Of a DNA stretch of 64,000 nucleotides, positions 35,584-47,557 are shown piece after piece. The DNA is from Aphanothece saxicola GSE-SYN-MK-01-06B (lineage in GTDB: Bacteria; Cyanobacteriota; Cyanobacteriia; PCC-6307; Cyanobiaceae), in the NCBI GenBank assembly GCA_019359745.1, contig JAHHGT010000001.1, positions 496,001-560,000 on the forward strand, in the 5' to 3' direction. Each line of letters starts with the position of its first letter. Position 1 is the first letter of the stretch. Under the pieces are notes generated by a model. That model ran no database searches. It had not been told where the DNA came from and saw nothing but the letters and a program-made list of their open reading frames with translations. Made by a program: the position numbers and the translations under genes.

Positions 35584-36297
35584 TCATCGGGCCAGTCGCT
35601 GGGCCGGCTCAAACATCTCCAGGGCTTCGGTGGATCCCTCGAAGCGCCAGTGCCAGGGTTCGTAGATCACCCCCTGGGAGTTGCCCTTCGGGAAGGAGCG
35701 CACGAAGTGAAAGCGGGCGGCATGGCGATCGAGCCAGCGGTAGGCGTCGGTGTTCTCAAAGCTCTCCATCAGATTGGAGGCCGGCAGGCGGCCGTCACCC
35801 AGGTCGACCGCGAAGCCCGTGCTGTGCTCCGAGAATCCCGGCGGGGCGCTCACCCGGGCCCGGTCGGCGGAGGTCTGGTTGCGCTCGGCCTTGACATCAA
35901 AGAACAGTTGTTTCTGCAGGTCGACGCCGCGATAGGCGCTCAGGACGGTGAGGGCAATGCCATCGACCTCAGCCGCCGCCCGCATGGCCTCCAGGGCTCT
36001 GGCCGCCTCCGGCCGCAACAGCAGACCCGGGGCGATCGCCACCAGCTCCTCAGGCCTGGCTTCGGGGTAGGGAAAATGGCCGAGCAAACGTCCATCCGGC
36101 CCAAGCCTGGCGGCCAGACCCGGCACGGGCGCAGGGGTGATCAGGGTGCGGAGCGGACCGATCAGCAGCAGAACGGCGCCACCGGCCAGCAGGGCGCCGC
36201 TGAGCAGCACCTGGGCCAGACGCCTGGGCAGGGAGGCCTGCCGTCGTGGGCGGGGCGTGGTGCGCCTGGCCAGCGGAATGTCATCACCGAGGGTCAT
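35584..36297 (-). CDS. M15 D-alanyl-D-alanine carboxypeptidase (VanY/LdcB-like)
   Basis: The 237-residue protein has one N-terminal membrane anchor (LLSGALLAGGAVLLLIGPL, about 30-49) and an extracytoplasmic M15B domain. Zinc and catalytic motifs are SAYRGVDLQKQLF, SEHSTGFAVDLGDG (His and Asp ligands) and EPWHWRFEG (Glu and His). It should trim the terminal D-Ala of peptidoglycan stem peptides. It is divergent from chlP. A second M15 peptidase, of the dipeptidase type, is encoded at 46.8 kb. Confidence 0.9.
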   Translation of the reverse strand: MTLGDDIPLARRTTPRPRRQASLPRRLAQVLLSGALLAGGAVLLLIGPLRTLITPAPVPGLAARLGPDGRLLGHFPYPEARPEELVAIAPGLLLRPEAARALEAMRAAAEVDGIALTVLSAYRGVDLQKQLFFDVKAERNQTSADRARVSAPPGFSEHSTGFAVDLGDGRLPASNLMESFENTDAYRWLDRHAARFHFVRSFPKGNSQGVIYEPWHWRFEGSTEALEMFEPAQRLAR

Positions 36298-37858: not shown

Positions 37859-39211
37859 TCAGGCCAGCCCTTCTGGTTGGTCTGAGGCGGCCTCAAGCCG
37901 GCTGACCAGGAGCTTGTCGACCCGGTTGCCATCCATGTCCACCACCTCGATGCGCAGATCTTCCCATTCGAAGACCTCGCCGGAACTGGGAATGTGCTCG
38001 AGGTGGTGCATCACAAACCCTCCCAGGGTCTGGTAGCCGCCGCGGACTTCTTCGGGCAGATGGTCTTTCTGCACCAGGTCCTTGAAGTCAGCGATGTCGA
38101 GGGCACCGTCGAGGAGCCAGGATCCATCCTGGCGAACGACGACCATCGGGTCTTCCTTGTCTCTGGCGGCGGAAAGATCGCCGACGATCGCTGCCATCAT
38201 GTCGTTGAGGGTCACCAGCCCCTCAATGCCGCCGAATTCATCGGTCACCAGGGCGATGTGCACGCCGCTGGTTCTGAATTGCTCGATCAGCTTCAGGGCC
38301 CTGGTGCTCTCGCCCACGTACAGGGGCGGCTGCAGGAACGCCTCGATATCACGTGGGCCTTCGCACAGCTGGGCGGCCAGAAAGGTGCGCCCACGCACCA
38401 CACCCACACAGGCGTCGAGGCTGTCGCGCGCCACCGGAAACAGCGAGTGATTGACCGCCATGACCCGCTCCAGATGGGACTGGGGAGACTCGGAGAGATC
38501 CAGCCAGCAGATGTCGGTGCGTGGGGTCATGATCGCCTTGACGGACCGATCCGCCAGGCGAAACACCCGCTCCACCATGGCGTGCTCCGCCACGTCGAAC
38601 AGGCCTGATTCCGTGCCCCTGCGCAGTAGGGTCCGGATCTCGTCTTCGGTGATCTCCGGTTCTCCGGTCTCGCCGATGCCCATCAGGCGGAGCAGCCGAT
38701 CGGTGGAGGAGCCGAGCAGGTGGGCCAGGGGCGCCATCCAGCGCGACAGGGTCCGCATCGGAGGTGCCACCAGGCAGGCGATGCGCTCCGGATCACTCAG
38801 GGCGATGCGCTTGGGAACCAGCTCCCCCAGCACCAGGGACAGAAAGGTGATCAACGTCACCACGATTCCCAGGGCCAGAGGTTCGGCCCAGGCCCGCAAC
38901 GGGGGCACCGCCTCCAGCAGAAGCCGCAGCGCCTCGGCCAACCGTGAGCCGCCCAGGGCGCCACTGAGGATGCCGATCAATGTGATGCCGATCTGCACCG
39001 TCGAGAGAAAATCGTTGGGCGATCGGATTAGTTTCAGAGCCACTTCCGCCTTCGGGTCACCAGCTTCCGCCTGGTGCTCGAGGCGCAGTCGCCGAGCCGA
39101 CATCATGGCCAACTCCGAACCGGAAAAGATCCCGTTGATCAGGATCAGAAGGACAATCAGAACGCCATCGAACAGCATCGGCAAGTCCAGTGAAGGCCCC
39201 TCGGCCGGCAA
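37859..39211 (-). CDS. CNNM/CorC (hemolysin C-like) transmembrane protein
   Basis: The 450-residue protein has a DUF21/CNNM membrane domain of about four helices (residues 12-160; LILINGIFSGSELAMMSARR near the N-terminus, LVLGELVPKRIAL), two CBS domains (about 215-340; IMTPRTDICWLDL, LVTDEFGGIEGLVTLNDMMA) and a CorC_HlyC C-terminal domain (about 350-440, GGYQTLGGFVMHHL). Relatives export or sense Mg2+ (CorC, MpfA) and the CBS pair binds adenine nucleotides. The old name hemolysin is misleading. It is divergent from the methyltransferase of the PKS cassette. Confidence 0.92.
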   Translation of the reverse strand: MPAEGPSLDLPMLFDGVLIVLLILINGIFSGSELAMMSARRLRLEHQAEAGDPKAEVALKLIRSPNDFLSTVQIGITLIGILSGALGGSRLAEALRLLLEAVPPLRAWAEPLALGIVVTLITFLSLVLGELVPKRIALSDPERIACLVAPPMRTLSRWMAPLAHLLGSSTDRLLRLMGIGETGEPEITEDEIRTLLRRGTESGLFDVAEHAMVERVFRLADRSVKAIMTPRTDICWLDLSESPQSHLERVMAVNHSLFPVARDSLDACVGVVRGRTFLAAQLCEGPRDIEAFLQPPLYVGESTRALKLIEQFRTSGVHIALVTDEFGGIEGLVTLNDMMAAIVGDLSAARDKEDPMVVVRQDGSWLLDGALDIADFKDLVQKDHLPEEVRGGYQTLGGFVMHHLEHIPSSGEVFEWEDLRIEVVDMDGNRVDKLLVSRLEAASDQPEGLA

Positions 39212-39343
39212 ACGGATGGAAAGGACAAGTTAGGGGACGACGGTTACAGCTTCTGGCCAGGAGCCCCTGCTTCCAAGAGGTCCTCAGGCCCCCTTCCAAC
39301 CGATCTGGGCCACACCCGGCCATCCCCCCAGCGACCTTCCCCG

Positions 39344-40081
39344 ATGCATTGGCAGCCCCTGGGCGAGCGGAACCGACAGCCTGAGTGGATGGATCAGAGC
39401 GGCCTCGACGCCGCTGCCCATGATCAGGCCCTCCAGGGTCTGCGCCGCATCAACGCCATCAGCGGGGCTGTGGGCTCCCTGTTCACCCCGATCCAGGCTC
39501 TGGCCGTGGCCCTGAACCTGTCCCGTCCGCTGCGGGTACTTGATGTGGCCTGCGGTGGCGGTGACAACACCATCGCCCTGGCGGAACGCTGCCGAAAGCA
39601 AGGACTGGCCGTTGTGATCGACGGTTGTGACCGGAGCCCGCAGGCGGTGACCATCGCCAGCCGCCATGCCGCCGGCGGATCCTTGGCCGGAACCTTCTTC
39701 CAGGCCGACGTGCTGGTGGATCCCCTGCCTGCGGACTACGACGTCATGGTCTGCAGTCTGTTTCTGCATCACCTCGACGACGCTGACGCCGTCGAACTGC
39801 TGCGCCGCCTGGGCCGGAGCTGCCGCCATCTGGTGCTGGTGAACGACCTGATCCGCAGTCCCCTGGGTTATGGGCTGGCCTGGGTGGGTTGTCGCCTGCT
39901 GAGCCGCTCCGCGATCGTGCATTTCGATGGGCCCGTTTCGGTGCAGGGGGCCTTCCGGATGGACGAAGCGCTGGAACTGGCGGCCCGGGCCGGCCTCGGC
40001 GGCGCCAGCATCCAGCGCAGCTGGCCCGAGCGCTTCCTGCTCAGTTGGCACCGTCCTGTCGGCTGGGTTGCGGCGCCATGA
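39344..40081 (+). CDS. class I SAM-dependent methyltransferase of the type III PKS cassette
   Basis: The 245-residue protein has a Rossmann-like SAM-binding domain: motif I VLDVACGGGDNTIALA at about 64-79, an acidic GCDRSPQAV after it, and DVMVCSLFLHHLDDADAV. The N-terminus (HDQALQGLRRINAISGAVG) resembles methyltransferases placed beside bacterial type III PKS genes. It probably methylates a phenolic oxygen or ring carbon of the polyketide; which one cannot be told. ATG at 39389 is an alternative start. Its stop overlaps the FAD gene start by 4 bp, and that gene overlaps the PKS gene, so the three form one translational unit. Confidence 0.85.
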   Translation: MHWQPLGERNRQPEWMDQSGLDAAAHDQALQGLRRINAISGAVGSLFTPIQALAVALNLSRPLRVLDVACGGGDNTIALAERCRKQGLAVVIDGCDRSPQAVTIASRHAAGGSLAGTFFQADVLVDPLPADYDVMVCSLFLHHLDDADAVELLRRLGRSCRHLVLVNDLIRSPLGYGLAWVGCRLLSRSAIVHFDGPVSVQGAFRMDEALELAARAGLGGASIQRSWPERFLLSWHRPVGWVAAP

Positions 40082-41232
40082 CCGCTCCGGAGTGGGATGT
40101 GATCGTGATCGGGGCCGGGCCCGCCGGTGCCCTGGCGGCCCATCAGCTGGCCAGGCAGCAACTGCGGGTGCTGCTGGTGGATAAGCGGACCTTCCCCCGC
40201 TGGAAAGTGTGCGGCACCTGTCTCAACGGGGTGGCCCTCGGGGCGTTGGCGCAGGCCGGCCTCCCCGACCTGGTGGACCGCCTCGGCGGTGTGCCGCTTG
40301 TGCGGCTGCGCCTGGGTCTGCAACAGCATCAGATGGAACTGGAGCGGCCCCTGGGTCGCTCCCTCTCCCGGGGCTGCCTCGATCTGGCCCTGTGCGAGGC
40401 CGCGGTGGCGGCAGGCACGGTGCTGCGGATGGATACCGAGGCCACGGTGGCCGGTCCCTGCCCGGGCGGCCGGCAGGTGCGCCTGGGCAGCGGCGGCGCG
40501 CCTGCCACCACGAGCGCCCGGGTGGTGCTGGTGGCCACCGGGCTGGGCAGCCCGGGCCTGACCCCTGCCATCCCGATCCGCAGCCAGGTCCAGGCGCACT
40601 CCAGGGTTGGTGCCGGCTGCCGCGTCGAGGCCCAGGCCAGCGGCTATGCCCCGGGCACGATCCACATGGCGATCGGCCGGCATGGCTATGTCGGGCTGGT
40701 GCGCACCGAAGCCGGTGACCTGAATCTCGCGGCGGCCTTCGAAAGGGGCCATCTGATCGCGGCGGGAGGAGCGGCGCACGCCGCCGCGGGCGTGCTGGCG
40801 GAGGCGGGGTTCGAACCTGTGCCTGAGGCTGCCGCTGCCGCCTGGCTGGCCACCCCGGCCCTCACCGGCCGCCGTTGGCCGCCGGCGTCCGAGCGTGTGC
40901 TGCTGCTGGGGGATGCCGCCGGCTATGTCGAACCGTTCACGGGTGAAGGCATGGGCTGGGCCCTGCTGGGGGCTCTGGCGGTGGTGCCGCTGGTGCTGCA
41001 GGGCCAAAGCCAGTGGAGCCGGGAGCTGGAGCAGCAATGGGTGCGCCGCTACGGCCAGCTGATCGGCTCCCGGCAACGCCTCTGCCATGGCCTGGCCTTT
41101 GCACTGCGCCGTCCTGGCCTCAGCCGCTGGCTGCTGGGGGCGGTGGAGCGCTGGCCGGTCCTGGTGACCCCGCTCCTGCACCCCCTCGCTGGCAGCAGCC
41201 TGAACCCGCCTCTGGTCGCGCCATGTCCCTGA
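40078..41232 (+). CDS. FAD-dependent oxidoreductase (geranylgeranyl reductase/hydroxylase-like) of the PKS cassette
   Basis: The ATG at 40078 gives 384 residues. FAD motifs are VIGAGPAGALAAHQLA (about residues 10-25), KRTFPRWKVCGTCLNG, and GDAAGYVEPFTGEGMGWAL near residue 280. The arrangement is that of the ChlP/halogenase/UbiH superfamily. In a PKS context it could hydroxylate an aromatic ring to a quinol or reduce a prenyl-like chain; I cannot choose. It overlaps the methyltransferase by 4 bp and the PKS by 10 bp. It lacks the lysine-rich motif of flavin halogenases (no GWxWxIP seen), so halogenation is unlikely. Confidence 0.82.
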   Translation: MTAPEWDVIVIGAGPAGALAAHQLARQQLRVLLVDKRTFPRWKVCGTCLNGVALGALAQAGLPDLVDRLGGVPLVRLRLGLQQHQMELERPLGRSLSRGCLDLALCEAAVAAGTVLRMDTEATVAGPCPGGRQVRLGSGGAPATTSARVVLVATGLGSPGLTPAIPIRSQVQAHSRVGAGCRVEAQASGYAPGTIHMAIGRHGYVGLVRTEAGDLNLAAAFERGHLIAAGGAAHAAAGVLAEAGFEPVPEAAAAAWLATPALTGRRWPPASERVLLLGDAAGYVEPFTGEGMGWALLGALAVVPLVLQGQSQWSRELEQQWVRRYGQLIGSRQRLCHGLAFALRRPGLSRWLLGAVERWPVLVTPLLHPLAGSSLNPPLVAPCP

Positions 41233-42323
41233 CGATCCAGGGGCTGGGAACGGCCCTGCCCCCCGAGTGCATCGCCCAGGGCGATGCCGCCGCCATCGCG
41301 GCCGAGGTGGCCCTGCCCCAGCAGAGCCCTTCACCGGGCCAGCGCCGGCTGCTCGGGACCCTGCACCGCCGCTCGGGCGTCGCCAGCCGCCACAGCGTGT
41401 TGCTCGAGCCCTTCGGCAGCGACCCCCGGCAGACCTTCTTCGGCGCCACCAGCCCCGGCACCGGCGAGCGGATGCGGCGCTATGCCCGCGAGGCGCCGCC
41501 CCTGGCCCTGCGTGCGGTCCGGGCGGCCCTCTGCCAGGCCCAGCAGCCTGCGGAGCGGATCACCCATCTGATCACGGTGTCCTGCAGCGGTTTCCATGCC
41601 CCCGGCGTGGATCTCGCCCTGATGGCCGCCCTGCCGCTGGACGCCGGGGTGGCCCGGACCCATGTGGGATTCATGGGTTGCCATGGTGCCCTCAATGGAC
41701 TGAGGGTCGCGGCGGCATTCACCGCTGCCGAGCCGGACGCCTGTGTGCTGCTGTGCGCGGTCGAGCTCTGCAGTCTCCATCTCCAGTACGGCTGGGATGC
41801 CGAGCGGATCGTCGCCAACGCCCTGTTCGCCGATGGCGCCGCTGCCCTGGTGGCCACCGGGACGCCAACGGCGGCGGCTGGGGCGCCAGCCATCGCCCCG
41901 CTGGGGCGTCTGATCGCCAGCGGCTCCCTGCTGGTGCCGGCCAGCTCGGACGCCATGTCCTGGGGGATCGGGGACCACGGCTTCGCCATGGGCCTCTCTC
42001 CGCAGGTCCCTGATCTGATCGGCGAGCATCTGCGGCCCTGGCTGGAGGGGTGGCTGGCCGGCCATAACCTCCGCCTCGACGCCATCGGCTCCTGGGCCGT
42101 GCACCCCGGCGGCCCCCGCATCCTCTCCGCCGTCACGAAGGCCCTCGGGCTTGATCCAGAGCTGATCGAACCGTCGCGGTCGGTGCTGCGGGACTACGGC
42201 AACATGTCGTCCCCGACGCTGCTGTTCATCCTCGAGCGCTTGCGGCGCAGCGGTGCTGCCGGGCCCTGCCTGGCCATGGCCTTCGGACCCGGCCTCTGCA
42301 TCGAGGTGGCCCTGCTGGCGTGA
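41223..42323 (+). CDS. type III polyketide synthase (chalcone/stilbene synthase family)
   Basis: The ATG at 41223 gives 366 residues, normal for the family. The catalytic triad is visible: Cys121 in VSCSGFHAPGVDLALM, His294 in WAVHPGGPRIL and Asn327 in DYGNMSSPTLLF. MGCHGALNGLR follows the nucleophile, as in bacterial enzymes. It condenses an acyl-CoA starter with malonyl-CoA into a pyrone, resorcinol or related ring in the cytosol; the small residues around the pocket cannot be read without a structure. It ends directly at the stop of the convergent glyS, with no space. It is the third gene of a coupled cassette with the methyltransferase and the FAD oxidoreductase. Confidence 0.93.
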   Translation: MSLTIQGLGTALPPECIAQGDAAAIAAEVALPQQSPSPGQRRLLGTLHRRSGVASRHSVLLEPFGSDPRQTFFGATSPGTGERMRRYAREAPPLALRAVRAALCQAQQPAERITHLITVSCSGFHAPGVDLALMAALPLDAGVARTHVGFMGCHGALNGLRVAAAFTAAEPDACVLLCAVELCSLHLQYGWDAERIVANALFADGAAALVATGTPTAAAGAPAIAPLGRLIASGSLLVPASSDAMSWGIGDHGFAMGLSPQVPDLIGEHLRPWLEGWLAGHNLRLDAIGSWAVHPGGPRILSAVTKALGLDPELIEPSRSVLRDYGNMSSPTLLFILERLRRSGAAGPCLAMAFGPGLCIEVALLA

Positions 42324-44489
42324 TCAAGACCCCAGGCGGGCGAAGTCGGCAAGCACGGCGGCCTGGTTGCGCAGCACGGCCAGCAGCCGCAGCCGGTTGC
42401 GGCGCACTTCAGGCTCATCGCACATCACCATGACGCTGTCGTCGCCATCGAAGAAGGCGGACAGGGTGGCGCCGCTCTCCCCCAGCAGGCTTGCGAGGGG
42501 GTCGTAGCGGGCGGTGCCGCTGGCGGCGGCATGCACCGCCAACCGCTCCAGCACCGCCAGCACGGCGGCCTCGCTGGGTGAAGCGAACAGGGCCGGATCC
42601 ACCACCCCGGCGGGGCTGAGCAGGTCGGAGGAAAGATCGGCGTGTTCGGCCAGCCGGGAGGCCCGTTGCACCACCGCCTGCACCAGGGGCAGGCGCTCCT
42701 CTGCCCGCAGGCGCCGCAGCAGCTCCACCCGGGCCCGGGCATCGGCGGGGTCCCGCAACAGCCGCTCGAGAGACACGCCCTCACCGGCCACGGCCTGGAC
42801 CAGATCAGCGCTGGAACCCTCCTCCTCCAGCAGGCTGGCGAGACGCTGACGCAGGAACTCGAGCAGGTCGGCCGCCAGGGCGGCAGGCTGGATCGCCAGG
42901 GCGGGCAGCAGCGCCTGCCAATGGGCGGTGGCTTCGGCCATCAGCGCCACCAGATCCAACGGCCAGCCGCGATCCCAGAGGATCTGCAGCAAGCCGTTGC
43001 CGGCACGGCGCAGGGCATAGGGATCGGAGGAGCCGCTGGGCCGTTCGCCCCTGGCAAAGATGCTGAGCAGCAGCTCCAGGCGCTCGGCCAGGGCCACCAG
43101 CGCCCCCGCCTCCGACCCCGGCAGCGCATCGCCGGCGCCGCGGGGCTGGTAGTGCTCCAGCACCGCCAGGGCCACGGCGCGGGTTTCCCCTTCCGCCAGC
43201 AGGTACTTGGCCCCCATGACCCCCTGCAGCTCAGGGAATTCCCCCACCATCTGGCTGACCAGGTCGTGCTTGCAGAGGGGAGCGGCCCGGCGGGCGGCGC
43301 TGGCGCCCTCCTCGCCGATCTCCAGGCTGCGGCAGAGCAAATCAGCCAGCCAGGCCAGGCGTTGGCTGCGATCGGCCAGGCTGCCCAGTCCTTCAGCAAA
43401 GGTGACCCGGTCGAGGGACTCCACCCGCTCAACGCTGCTCTGGCGGCGATCGGCCGCCAGGAAGAAGGCCGCATCCGCCAGCCGCGCCCGCAGCACCCGC
43501 TCGTTGCCGCGGCGGATCGTGGCGGCGGCGGCCTCCAGGCCATTGGAGATGCACAGGAAGCGCGGCAGCAGCACCCCATCGGCCACCAGGGCCAGGGGAT
43601 CAGCCGTGGCCGCCGAGAGGCGCAGGGGCACGTAGCGCTGGTGGGACCGCATCACCGTGCTGAGCACCTCCGGGGGCAGGGCCAGATAGGCGGCATCGAT
43701 GCGGCCCTCGATCAGGCGCGGGGACTCCACCAGGTCGACCAGTTCATCGAACAGGGCGCCAGGCAGGTCCAGTTCGGCCCCCGCCCGGGTCGCGGCCGCC
43801 TCCAGCTCACGGCGGATCATCAGTCCCCTGGCCTGGCGGTCGACCTGCACGTCGGCGGCGGCCAGGGTCGAGGCGTAGGCCGCGGCGGAAGGGATCACCA
43901 CCGCGTCTTGGTGCAGACGGTGGCCGCGGCTGAGGCGGCCGGAGGCCAGGGGGGGGTCCACATCGGTGAGCTGCACCGGAACCACCGCCCCATCCAGCAG
44001 CGCCACCAGCCAGCGGAGGGGTCGGCTGAAGCGGCCGTCGCCATTTCCCCAGCGCATGAAGCGCCGCCCCTGCAGGGAGCGGATCCAGCCGGGGATGCAG
44101 CCGGCCAGCACCGCCTCGGCGGAGCGCCCGGCCTCGATGGTGCGGGCGAACACGAAGGGGCCCTTGTCGGTGTCGCGGATCTCCAGTTGTTCGGGATCGC
44201 AGCCACAGCGGCGGGCGAAACCCACCGCGGCCGGGGTGGGCTGGCCATCGCGGAACGCCTGCTGGGCCGGGGGCCCCTTGCGCTCTTCAATCAGATCCTG
44301 CTGGCGCTCGGGCAATCCGGCGATCGTCACCGCCAGCCGGCGGGGCGTGCCGCTGGCCTTGAGGCTGTCCCAGGACAGGCGAGCCTCCTGCAGATCCCTG
44401 GCCACGATCGCCTCCAGCTGGGGCTGGGCCAGGCGCACGAAATCGGCTGGCAGTTCCTCGGTTCCGATCTCCAGAAGAAAGGTGGCCAT
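42324..44489 (-). CDS. glyS: glycine--tRNA ligase beta subunit
   Basis: The ATG at 44489 gives 721 residues. GlyS is the tRNA-binding and assembly subunit of the alpha2beta2 bacterial enzyme. The N-terminal FLLEIGTEELPADFVRLA is the family hallmark, then ASGTPRRLAVTIAGLP and GVSLERLLRDPADARARVEL late. An HD-like and anticodon-binding region fills the C-terminal part. The alpha subunit gene glyQ is not in the window, as is usual when the two are unlinked in cyanobacteria. It is divergent from sir with 106 bp between the starts. Confidence 0.95.
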   Translation of the reverse strand: MATFLLEIGTEELPADFVRLAQPQLEAIVARDLQEARLSWDSLKASGTPRRLAVTIAGLPERQQDLIEERKGPPAQQAFRDGQPTPAAVGFARRCGCDPEQLEIRDTDKGPFVFARTIEAGRSAEAVLAGCIPGWIRSLQGRRFMRWGNGDGRFSRPLRWLVALLDGAVVPVQLTDVDPPLASGRLSRGHRLHQDAVVIPSAAAYASTLAAADVQVDRQARGLMIRRELEAAATRAGAELDLPGALFDELVDLVESPRLIEGRIDAAYLALPPEVLSTVMRSHQRYVPLRLSAATADPLALVADGVLLPRFLCISNGLEAAAATIRRGNERVLRARLADAAFFLAADRRQSSVERVESLDRVTFAEGLGSLADRSQRLAWLADLLCRSLEIGEEGASAARRAAPLCKHDLVSQMVGEFPELQGVMGAKYLLAEGETRAVALAVLEHYQPRGAGDALPGSEAGALVALAERLELLLSIFARGERPSGSSDPYALRRAGNGLLQILWDRGWPLDLVALMAEATAHWQALLPALAIQPAALAADLLEFLRQRLASLLEEEGSSADLVQAVAGEGVSLERLLRDPADARARVELLRRLRAEERLPLVQAVVQRASRLAEHADLSSDLLSPAGVVDPALFASPSEAAVLAVLERLAVHAAASGTARYDPLASLLGESGATLSAFFDGDDSVMVMCDEPEVRRNRLRLLAVLRNQAAVLADFARLGS

Positions 44490-44595
44490 GCGGGGGGACG
44501 GGCAGGACGCGACTGTATGCAAAGGAGGGAGTTGGCGATCAGCGCCAGCAAACCGACACGTCCCGTTCGCTAGTTTCGTTGCAACAACTTTCCGC

Positions 44596-46371
44596 ATGCC
44601 GATGTCCTCGACGACGGTCGCCGACAGCACGTCGCTCCCATCGGCATCCCCCGCCAAACCCCCCACCAAACAGGAGACCCTCAAGGCTGGCAGCGGCCAC
44701 CTGCATGATCCCCTGGCCGCCGAACTGGGCAACGCCCAGCCCAGTTTCAGCGATCCTGCCGTCCAGATCCTCAAGTTCCACGGCAGTTACCAGCAGGACG
44801 ACCGCGACAAGCGCCGCAAGGGGGCCGAAAAGGACTGGCAGATGATGCTGCGCCTGCGCAACCCCGGCGGCCGCATTCCCACGTCCCTGTATCTGGCCCT
44901 CGATGCCCTCGCTGATCGGCTGGGCAACGGCACTCTGCGCATCACCACGCGCCAGGCCTTCCAGATGCACGGCGTGTTGAAGACCGACCTAAAGGAGGTG
45001 ATCGGCAGCATCGTGCGGGCCCTTGGCTCGACGCTGTCGGCCTGTGGCGACATCAACCGCAACGTGATGGCCCCGGCCGCTCCCTTCGAGCGCGATGGCT
45101 ACCCGGAGGCCCGTCTGCTGGCGGATCAGATCGCCGACCTGCTGGCGCCCCAGGCGGCCGAGGGGTCTTACCTGGACCTCTGGGTGGACGGTGACCTGAG
45201 TTACCGCATCAAACCCAAAGGGCCCGTGAGGAAGGCGCGCAAGCTGCAGGAGAGCGGTGCCGTGTTCAGTGGGGATACGGCCGAACCCCTCTACGGCGCC
45301 ACCTACCTGCCGCGCAAGTTCAAAGTGGCCGTCACCGTTCCTGGTGACAACTCCGTCGACCTGCTGACCCAGGACATCGGCCTGGTGCTGTTCAGCGATC
45401 CCTCCGGCCGCCCCCTGGGCTGCAACGTCTATGTGGGTGGGGGCATGGGGCGGACCCACAACAAGGAGGAGACCTTCGCCCGCACGGCCGATCCCCTTGG
45501 CTACGTGGCCGCCGCCCATGTGCTGGAACTGGTGCAGGCGATCGTGGCCCTGCAGCGCGACCACGGCGACCGGGAACAGCGCCGCCACGCCCGGATGAAG
45601 TACCTGATCCACGACCGTGGTGTGGACTGGTTCCGGACCGAGCTGGGCCGTTACTTTCCCCATCCGATCAAGGGGCTGCGCCGCGAACCGACCGCCGTCC
45701 TCACCGACTATCTGGGCTGGCACCGCCAGTCGCCGGGGCTGTGGTTCGTGGGTCTGCCCGTGCTCTGCGGACGCCTGCAGGGAGACCTCAAGACCGGCCT
45801 CCGCCGCCTGATCGAGACCTACCAGCTGGAGGTGCGGCTCACCCCCAACCAGGACCTGCTGCTGTGCAACATCGGCAGCGCCCAGCGGACGTCGGTGCGG
45901 GAGGCGCTGGCGGCGCTGGGTCTCAGCAGCCCTGAGGCCCCGCCCGCCCTGGCCCGTCACGCCCTGGCCTGCCCGGCCCTGCCCCTCTGCGGTCTGGCCG
46001 TCACCGAAGCCGAACGGGTCCTGCCGAACGTGCTGGGTCGCCTCGATGCCCTGCTGGAGCGGCTGGAGATCAGCAAACCGCTCCTGGTGCGCATGACCGG
46101 CTGCCCCAACGGCTGCGCCCGCCCCTACATGGCCGAGATCGGGCTGGTGGGGAGCGCGGTGGACAGCTATCAACTGTGGCTCGGCGGCAGCCATGGCCTG
46201 ACGCGCCTGGCCAAGCCGTACCTCGAGAAGATGCCCCTGGAGAAGCTGGAGACCACCCTGGAGCCCCTGCTGACGGCCTGGCGCGACGAAGGCGGCGCCC
46301 GCAGCCGCTTCGGCGACTTCATCGACCGGCTCGGTGAGGAACGGGTCGGCCAGCTGCTCTCCCCCGCCTGA
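44596..46371 (+). CDS. sir: ferredoxin--sulfite reductase
   Basis: The ATG at 44596 gives 591 residues. The enzyme reduces sulfite to sulfide with ferredoxin in assimilatory sulfur metabolism, using siroheme and a 4Fe-4S cluster. Cluster ligands are in HALACPALPLCGL (about 457-463) and MTGCPNGCARPYMAEIG (about 499-507). The ferredoxin-type N-terminal half shows RITTRQAFQMHGVLKTDL. The NtcA or CysR control known in other species was not recognised upstream. The following small exported protein gene starts 70 bp later on the same strand. Confidence 0.95.
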   Translation: MPMSSTTVADSTSLPSASPAKPPTKQETLKAGSGHLHDPLAAELGNAQPSFSDPAVQILKFHGSYQQDDRDKRRKGAEKDWQMMLRLRNPGGRIPTSLYLALDALADRLGNGTLRITTRQAFQMHGVLKTDLKEVIGSIVRALGSTLSACGDINRNVMAPAAPFERDGYPEARLLADQIADLLAPQAAEGSYLDLWVDGDLSYRIKPKGPVRKARKLQESGAVFSGDTAEPLYGATYLPRKFKVAVTVPGDNSVDLLTQDIGLVLFSDPSGRPLGCNVYVGGGMGRTHNKEETFARTADPLGYVAAAHVLELVQAIVALQRDHGDREQRRHARMKYLIHDRGVDWFRTELGRYFPHPIKGLRREPTAVLTDYLGWHRQSPGLWFVGLPVLCGRLQGDLKTGLRRLIETYQLEVRLTPNQDLLLCNIGSAQRTSVREALAALGLSSPEAPPALARHALACPALPLCGLAVTEAERVLPNVLGRLDALLERLEISKPLLVRMTGCPNGCARPYMAEIGLVGSAVDSYQLWLGGSHGLTRLAKPYLEKMPLEKLETTLEPLLTAWRDEGGARSRFGDFIDRLGEERVGQLLSPA

Positions 46372-46441: not shown

Positions 46442-46843
46442 ATGCGCAACCCTGCAGCCGCTGCTCTCCAGCCTCTGCTCTGGGGGCTGCTGCTGGGGCT
46501 GTTGCCCGGCGCCGGCCGCACCAGCGAAGCGGCGGAGCGCCCCCAGCCCCCCGAGGCGCGTGTCAGGTACTTCGAATCAGACCCCCAGGCCTGCAAACCG
46601 GAGGCGATCAGCGCCTCCTACAAGAGCCACCTGCAGCCCTACGCCGACCAGAGCCCCGAGGTGCTGGCCAAGTTGCGCCGCGTGCAGGATGACCTGACCC
46701 TGGCCAGCCTCAAGCGCTGTGTCCAGAAGGGGCTGCTGACCCGTCCCCAGGCCAGCGTGCTGTTCCGGTCACTGGGCCTGACCCTCCCCGGCACGGTCAT
46801 CCCCGTGACCGCGCCTCAACCCTCCCCGGCGACGGCGCCGTAA
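46442..46843 (+). CDS. exported hypothetical protein
   Basis: The ATG at 46442 gives 133 residues with a signal peptide (LLWGLLLGLLPGAGRTSEA, about 12-30). The mature part is charged and helical (SHLQPYADQSPEVLAKLRRV, LTLASLKRCVQKGLLT) with two cysteines, ending in a Pro/Ala/Thr-rich tail. No domain is recognised. It is convergent with the VanX-like gene, and the two coding ends overlap by 28 bp. Confidence 0.65.
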   Translation: MRNPAAAALQPLLWGLLLGLLPGAGRTSEAAERPQPPEARVRYFESDPQACKPEAISASYKSHLQPYADQSPEVLAKLRRVQDDLTLASLKRCVQKGLLTRPQASVLFRSLGLTLPGTVIPVTAPQPSPATAP

Positions 46844-47523
46844 GCAGCCTGCAGCTCCTGGCATCGCCAGGCCCAGAGCTGGTCACCGTGGCTGAAGTGC
46901 CACCACTCGTTGGGGTGCTGGGCAAACCCCGCCTCCCCCATCACCGCCGCCAGCAGGCGCCGGCGGGCGTGCCAGTCGGCGGCCTCGCTGCCAGGGGAGG
47001 CCCCGGCGTAATGGTCGGGATGGGAGATCGCACCGATCGCGTCGATCTCCCCGCCCATCGCCAGGGGTCGGCCGCCGGCGTCGGCCAGGGTGAGATCCAC
47101 CGCCGCCCCGGTGCTGTGGGGTGGGGGGGTGGCCGGATCACGGCTCGGCGGTGCCCAGAAGCGATCCACCTCCGCCGCCACGGCCGTCTGGCCAGGCCCG
47201 GCCGCATCCGGGTCGAGACTCCGCTCCCGGCAGGTCTCCCGGAAGGCGTGGCGAACCATGAAGGCCTGGACGGCGATCGGTCTCCAGGCATCGAAGATCG
47301 CCAGTCGCCATTGGGGTTGCTGCTGCTGAAGCAGGCCCTGGGCCGCCTCCAGCCGGAGGATCACCCCTCGCCTCAGCCGAAACGGACTGGAACCGGCGCC
47401 GTAGGGCGCCCCCAGCACCTGGTAAGGGTGGGGCTCCAATCGCCACAGCGGCGCCGGCAGCTCGTCCAGGGGCTCACCGGTCTCGGCGATGGGAATCGGA
47501 CTCCAGGGGCGCAGGGGGGGCAT
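46816..47523 (-). CDS. M15 D-Ala-D-Ala dipeptidase-like protein (VanX family)
   Basis: The ATG at 47523 gives 235 residues; a GTG at 47547 would add 8. Zinc and catalytic features of VanX: FDAWRPIAVQAFMV, HSTGAAVDLTLAD (His and Asp), and EWWHFSHGDQLWAW (Glu and His). VanX hydrolyses free D-Ala-D-Ala; without a vancomycin-resistance cluster here, a role in peptidoglycan recycling is more likely. There is no signal peptide, so it is probably cytosolic. It lies 34 bp after recG on the same strand. Confidence 0.88.
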   Translation of the reverse strand: MPPLRPWSPIPIAETGEPLDELPAPLWRLEPHPYQVLGAPYGAGSSPFRLRRGVILRLEAAQGLLQQQQPQWRLAIFDAWRPIAVQAFMVRHAFRETCRERSLDPDAAGPGQTAVAAEVDRFWAPPSRDPATPPPHSTGAAVDLTLADAGGRPLAMGGEIDAIGAISHPDHYAGASPGSEAADWHARRRLLAAVMGEAGFAQHPNEWWHFSHGDQLWAWRCQELQAAYGAVAGEG

Positions 47524-47557
47524 GGGGCAGTCAGTCCGGGCCGGCACGAGGGCGGGA

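Follow-up and report, generated by a model that had tools for sequence, protein, structure and literature searches.

A hidABC-type gene cassette in Aphanothece saxicola as a predicted source of hierridin-type lipids

The stretch of DNA analysed here (the window, 64,000 nucleotides of Aphanothece saxicola GSE-SYN-MK-01-06B) carries genes for a methyltransferase, an FAD oxidoreductase and a type III polyketide synthase (PKS) in a row, which raises the question of what the three enzymes make together. An earlier note on the sequence had proposed a methylated alkylresorcinol, pyrone or quinone, perhaps a membrane redox lipid, and likened the genes to the srs operon, in which a type III PKS, a methyltransferase and a flavoprotein yield phenolic lipids; it knew of no product for such a cassette in picocyanobacteria. 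Judged by gene order, residues, clade and published descriptions, the cassette is of the hidABC type and adds one more instance of a pathway already described.

The open reading frame calls (Table 1) returned the coordinates of the earlier note for three intact genes, co-directional on the + strand, with overlaps of 4 bp between the methyltransferase and FAD genes (40078-40081) and of 10 bp between the FAD and PKS genes (41223-41232). The protein families it had named were recovered as matches to PF13649 (5.4e-14), PF01494 (6.6e-10), Chal_sti_synt_N (9.6e-23) and Chal_sti_synt_C (7.3e-22), and the PKS is the sole PF00195 match (E <= 0.001) of its 3.25-Mb genome. A scan of 38900-42700 for sigma-70-type promoters gave 0 matches (0.2 expected), and the one terminator-like site lies within the methyltransferase gene (0.9 expected by chance). 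Recent foreign origin was rejected on composition, the GC content of the cassette genes (68.0-73.5%) being no outlier against five neighbours (63.1-71.3%) and the window (68.8%). The wider region is flanked on either side by a VanY-type D-alanyl-D-alanine carboxypeptidase gene (35584-36297, - strand) and a Peptidase_M15 D-Ala-D-Ala dipeptidase gene (46816-47547, - strand).

Table 1. Genes of the cassette and its immediate neighbours, in window coordinates
Feature	Position	Strand	Remarks
hidA-like SAM-dependent methyltransferase	39344-40081	+	245 aa; ORF call, PF13649
hidB-like FAD-dependent oxidoreductase	40078-41232	+	384 aa; PF01494; GxGxxG and GDAAGYVEPFTGEG motifs
hidC-like type III polyketide synthase	41223-42323	+	366 aa; Chal_sti_synt_N and _C
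CNNM/CorC_HlyC family gene, flanking, outside pathway	37859-39211	-	also borders cassette in near relatives
glyS, glycyl-tRNA synthetase beta chain, flanking, outside pathway	42324-44774	-	true start uncertain; borders cassette in near relatives

The published record does hold a product for a picocyanobacterial cassette of this kind, contrary to the earlier note: the hierridins, which are methylated phenolic lipids, have been attributed to hidABC of Cyanobium sp. LEGE 06113, with hierridin B (PMC8086630 and PMC10896814, citing Costa 2019) as a compound isolated from that strain (PMC3726634). A hierridin B region is also annotated in Synechococcus sp. LA31 (PMC8928756), and Larsen et al. (2021) described 47 hierridin-like clusters in cyanobacteria, the more conserved order being hidA (methyltransferase), hidB (oxidoreductase), hidC (type III PKS) (PMC8086630). 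By published description, the window cassette resembles that of Cyanobium sp. LEGE 06113 in gene content, order, picocyanobacterial host, Met gatekeeper and the absence of a halogenation gene from the cassette; the Cyanobium strain is not among the best 80 of 556 loci of our collection. Milke et al. (2024) placed 58 of 96 planctomycetal type III PKS genes within such an operon, and PKSs of these operons gave penta- and heptadecylresorcinols in C. glutamicum (PMC10896814). The operon of Gimesia maris and Rhodopirellula baltica shares the order methyltransferase-oxidoreductase-type III PKS with the window but belongs to another phylum, and its G. maris methyltransferase probably acts on carbon (PMC10896814). 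The comparison with srsABC of Streptomyces griseus holds as an analogy of function only: the published PKS tree assigns SrsA to clade 2.22 but HidC to clade 3.2222 (PMC8086630).

We consider it highly probable that the operon directs the synthesis of a hierridin-type lipid. The HidC-like PKS would add three malonyl-CoA units to a long-chain fatty acyl thioester, and a C2-C7 aldol condensation would close the resulting tetraketide to a 5-alkylresorcinol. The ring would then be hydroxylated by the HidB-like FAD protein and methylated, most likely on oxygen, by the HidA-like enzyme. The proposal builds on the gene order, the intact catalytic residues, the fold class of the tailoring enzymes, the clade and the conserved synteny. 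The rest of the scheme, from the acyl starter and the mode of ring closure through hydroxylation and O-methylation to the length of the chain and the precise product, is predicted from published homologues. The alkylresorcinol-type product class of the earlier note fits this assignment. The cassette contains no acyl-activating gene, as would be expected if the starter is an acyl-ACP, the proposal made for HidC (PMC8086630).

The evidence on the position of the methyl groups is mixed. The methyltransferase scored 234.2 bits against NCBIfam NF004851 (a 'hypothetical protein' model), slightly below the cut-off of 243. Its predicted model (pLDDT 89.1) matched many small-molecule methyltransferases, NovO first and CouO, titled a C-methyltransferase, eighth, along with CysG, ChlM, AtmM and Coq5. 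We take CysG, ChlM and AtmM to act on other acceptors, and since the list is mixed in this way the folds leave O- against C-methylation undecided. HidA of a Cyanobium is described as methylating both phenolic hydroxyls (PMC10896814, after Costa 2019), and by this analogy methylation on oxygen is most likely; some doubt attaches to it because the G. maris enzyme is probably a C-methyltransferase and because CouO and NovO are among the nearest folds. Were the same alkylresorcinol core methylated on a ring carbon instead, the product would be no hierridin but a hydroxylated and C-methylated alkylresorcinol or quinone. The G. maris methyltransferase and oxidoreductase, which when co-expressed produced a single methyl thought to be on carbon (PMC10896814), and the presence of NovO, CouO and Coq5 among the model matches point that way, but the account of Cyanobium HidA speaks against it and the fold list, with its enzymes for other acceptors, is not decisive. 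We regard ring-carbon methylation as unlikely.

The residues of the PKS are consistent with the alkylresorcinol route. The earlier note had read an intact triad of Cys121, His294 and Asn327; the histidine and asparagine stand, and the nucleophile is Cys153, in VGFMGC, the cysteine that the window PKS shares with the solved PKS18 in the alignment, position 121 being S in PKS18 and T in plant chalcone synthase. The corrected triad (Cys153-His294-Asn327) is invariant in 104 of 104 aligned sequences, namely the window, 100 loci picked by PKS similarity and three solved chains. Phe202 and Met256 stand at the two gatekeeper positions known from chalcone synthase. The Met256 column holds Phe in plant chalcone synthase and Cys in PKS18, and the Met is unspecific, occurring in 101 of the 104 sequences, including solved chain 3vs9, presumably ArsC. 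This column is a likeness to ArsB/ArsC of Azotobacter vinelandii, which differ in that 3vs9 falls outside the window group in our tree, where its partner is a second PKS encoded by genome G090. ArsB and ArsC are type III PKSs for long-chain alkylresorcinols and alkylpyrones, and the HidC clade (3.2222) has a conserved Met at the position of CHS Phe265 (PMC8086630). DpgA (3,5-dihydroxyphenylacetyl-CoA synthase) was rejected as an identity, with 167.5 bits against the NCBIfam NF042429 cut-off of 425.

Of the 104 sequences, 90 went into a quick maximum-likelihood tree, all but 14 of the further 20 loci described below. It placed the window PKS in a cyanobacterial group of 37 + 2 rows and the window itself, with a support (SH-aLRT 89) that falls short of the 95 set by the tool. 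The nearest sequences are those of Cyanobium sp. N5-Cardenillas and Synechococcus sp. CCY 0621; the group also includes Synechococcus sp. WH 5701 and Prochlorococcus sp. MIT 0701, whose loci keep the hidA-hidB-hidC (A-B-C) order, and it sits beside planctomycetal and other carriers. The tree covers neither HidC, SrsA and ArsB nor the planctomycetal PKSs that Milke et al. assayed, and long-branch warnings were given for plant CHS, 3vs9, PKS18, L048-L051 and others.

The tree bears on the possibility that the PKS resembles PKS18 and makes alkyl-alpha-pyrones, which the tailoring enzymes would then decorate. PKS18 is the best solved-structure match of the window PKS by sequence (4e-49), and pyrones are left possible for cyanobacterial enzymes in PMC8086630; against this, PKS18 pairs in the tree with another cyanobacterial PKS (L050), apart from the window group, and has Cys where the window PKS has Met as gatekeeper. 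Neither the grouping nor the gatekeeper fits a PKS18-type pyrone synthase, and we hold this reading to be highly improbable. Two observations concern other type III PKSs of cyanobacteria. The second PKS of G090 (L049 5239-6288) is 33% identical, with 3vs9 as its best solved match, and Cyanobium gracile PCC 6307 has two type III PKS clusters (PMC8086630). Genome G083 holds a distant cassette (L048 3456-6466) in the order PKS, methyltransferase, oxidoreductase (identity 40%, 33% and 27%), which is the second arrangement in PMC8086630.

We analyzed the FAD protein for a role in hydroxylation or halogenation. Flavin halogenases are the nearest solved folds of its predicted model (pLDDT 86.8), with Z scores of 39.0 (PltA), 38.3 (ChlB4), 38.2 (Mpy16), 37.7 (FasV), 37.4 (Bmp2), 36.0 (CndH) and 35.5 (RadH), and flavoprotein 3nix (36.4) ranks amid them. 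Squalene epoxidase (34.5-34.7) and the GG-reductase-like 3oz2 (34.4) come next, and p-hydroxybenzoate-type hydroxylases score 33-34, some 3-6 Z under the halogenases, in a VIA-align table from which the lack of a family does not exclude it. NCBIfam GG-red-SF gave 98.3 bits, below its cut-off of 158.8. Flavin halogenases typically carry a WxWxIP motif and a catalytic lysine. The motif occurs in 0 of 22 aligned HidB proteins, and the window protein has just two lysines, 36 and 43, neither at the expected catalytic place; by sequence, the solved halogenases match mainly its FAD-binding N-terminus. Alignment A2 was built from 22 of 32 first-listed sequences and alignment A3 from 20 of 31, those left out including L079 and L076, with an internal stop codon each, L080 (titled Gemmatimonadota) and L086 (Acidobacteria). 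A Trp_halogenase search of the window's own genome gave two weak partial matches to a family that likewise scores in 5 of 14 control genomes. Lacking the halogenase motif and lysine, the HidB-like protein is likelier to be a hydroxylase, and hierridin B is hydroxylated at position 4 (PMC10896814); in the excerpts of PMC8086630 and PMC10896814 used here, HidB is not named as a hydroxylase. That the protein is a halogenase, a thought prompted by its top folds and by the chlorinated hierridin C, is barely credible given the absence of motif and lysine and a sequence match mostly confined to the N-terminus.

The cassette is conserved well beyond the window. PKS matches at E <= 1e-10 occur in 103 of 300 family genomes, some of them other type III PKSs or fragments. 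Besides the window's own, 24 genomes of the genus were listed, and 15 have a near full-length PKS match (61-95% identity); the rest comprise a truncated PKS (G175), a fragment (G198), distant homologues only (G257, 39%; G286, 32%) and five without any match. From the genome collection we took the best 80 of 556 candidate stretches encoding a PKS relative, a set chosen by PKS similarity and no census. The three genes stand in A-B-C order on one strand in 75 of these 80 loci, so the arrangement is more than chance, and the synteny that the earlier note had suggested looking for is borne out. The order is plain in 73, and two (L084, L100) have the B match split in two pieces; of the five exceptions, two (L097, L102) begin where their contig does and three (L107, L118, L122) have C only. 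Among 20 further loci, a set overlapping with the 80 (G113 is L053), the order is present in 16 (PKS 52-93% identical) and absent in four (30-40%).

Copies were also found outside the cyanobacteria. The natural 112-kb plasmid PALBO1 of Paludisphaera borealis PX4, the one record examined among 150 plasmid records with a PKS match, encodes a methyltransferase, an FAD oxidoreductase and a type III PKS (L170 6098-9065) in genes that overlap by 4 bp, the PKS being 58.1% identical to that of the window. Planctomycetal PKSs (by record title, mostly MAGs) among the best 80 of 556 loci are 48-59% identical to it, and further records in this set with all three genes in hidABC order are titled Hydrogenedentota (5), Gemmatimonadota (4) and Acidobacteria (1 MAG) (L080, L086, L093, L111, L113, L116, L117, L124, L129 and L130). 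Wrong binning of such MAGs is possible; L130, titled Gemmatimonadota, is a single 4.1-Mb record. The main text of PMC10896814 names neither Paludisphaera nor these three phyla, and none of the literature matches listed plainly links the three to alkylresorcinol or type III PKS. No phage record held the PKS, and 20 pattern matches in viral contigs included no relative. Like the records titled with further phyla, the plasmid copy bears on the idea of horizontal transfer raised in PMC10896814. A broader reading, which we think very unlikely, is that the cassette, seen in records under five phylum names, yields an alkylresorcinol methylated on a ring carbon and hydroxylated in the para position, an electron-cycling alkyl hydroquinone/quinone, and that it moves between lineages as a small unit, at times on a plasmid. 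If true, hierridins would represent a single O-methylated branch within a larger family of quinone lipids.

Near relatives allow the hidABC-type cassette to be followed at one chromosomal site. The order of chlP, corC-like gene, hidABC and glyS seen in the window recurs in six of the best 80 of 556 loci (L052-L056, L059), and likewise in G113 (L053) and G280. We inspected the chlP/corC-glyS site in 18 genomes, which were selected and not random. It holds the cassette in two, G090 and, without the corC-like gene, G084, and decayed remains in two others: G198 keeps two short hidC pieces (L152 8036-8196), and in G175 the hidA start is fused in frame to hidC from residue 101, with hidB gone (L154 6853-7716). 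The break points of these remains differ, suggesting decay by at least two different deletions. The other sites hold no cassette: the corC-like gene adjoins glyS in five (G226, G286, G268, G292, G235), chlP and glyS are 0.1-0.9 kb apart in seven (G010, G003, G008, G062, G163, G187, G004), and a gap of 1.3-3.1 kb without a cassette match separates them in two (G262, G009). G062, G163, G187 and G262 have a PKS elsewhere in the genome. The empty and decayed sites, together with the PKS genes elsewhere, suggest that the cassette is dispensable here and is present at other places too. The main text of PMC8086630 contains none of the words 'chlP', 'glycyl' and 'plasmid'.

What appeared to be an orphan cassette thus becomes a prediction that the strain produces lipids of the hierridin type. 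Near relatives in which one chromosomal site holds the cassette, its decayed remains or neither provide natural pairs of genomes with and without it, in which the function of these lipids may be probed.
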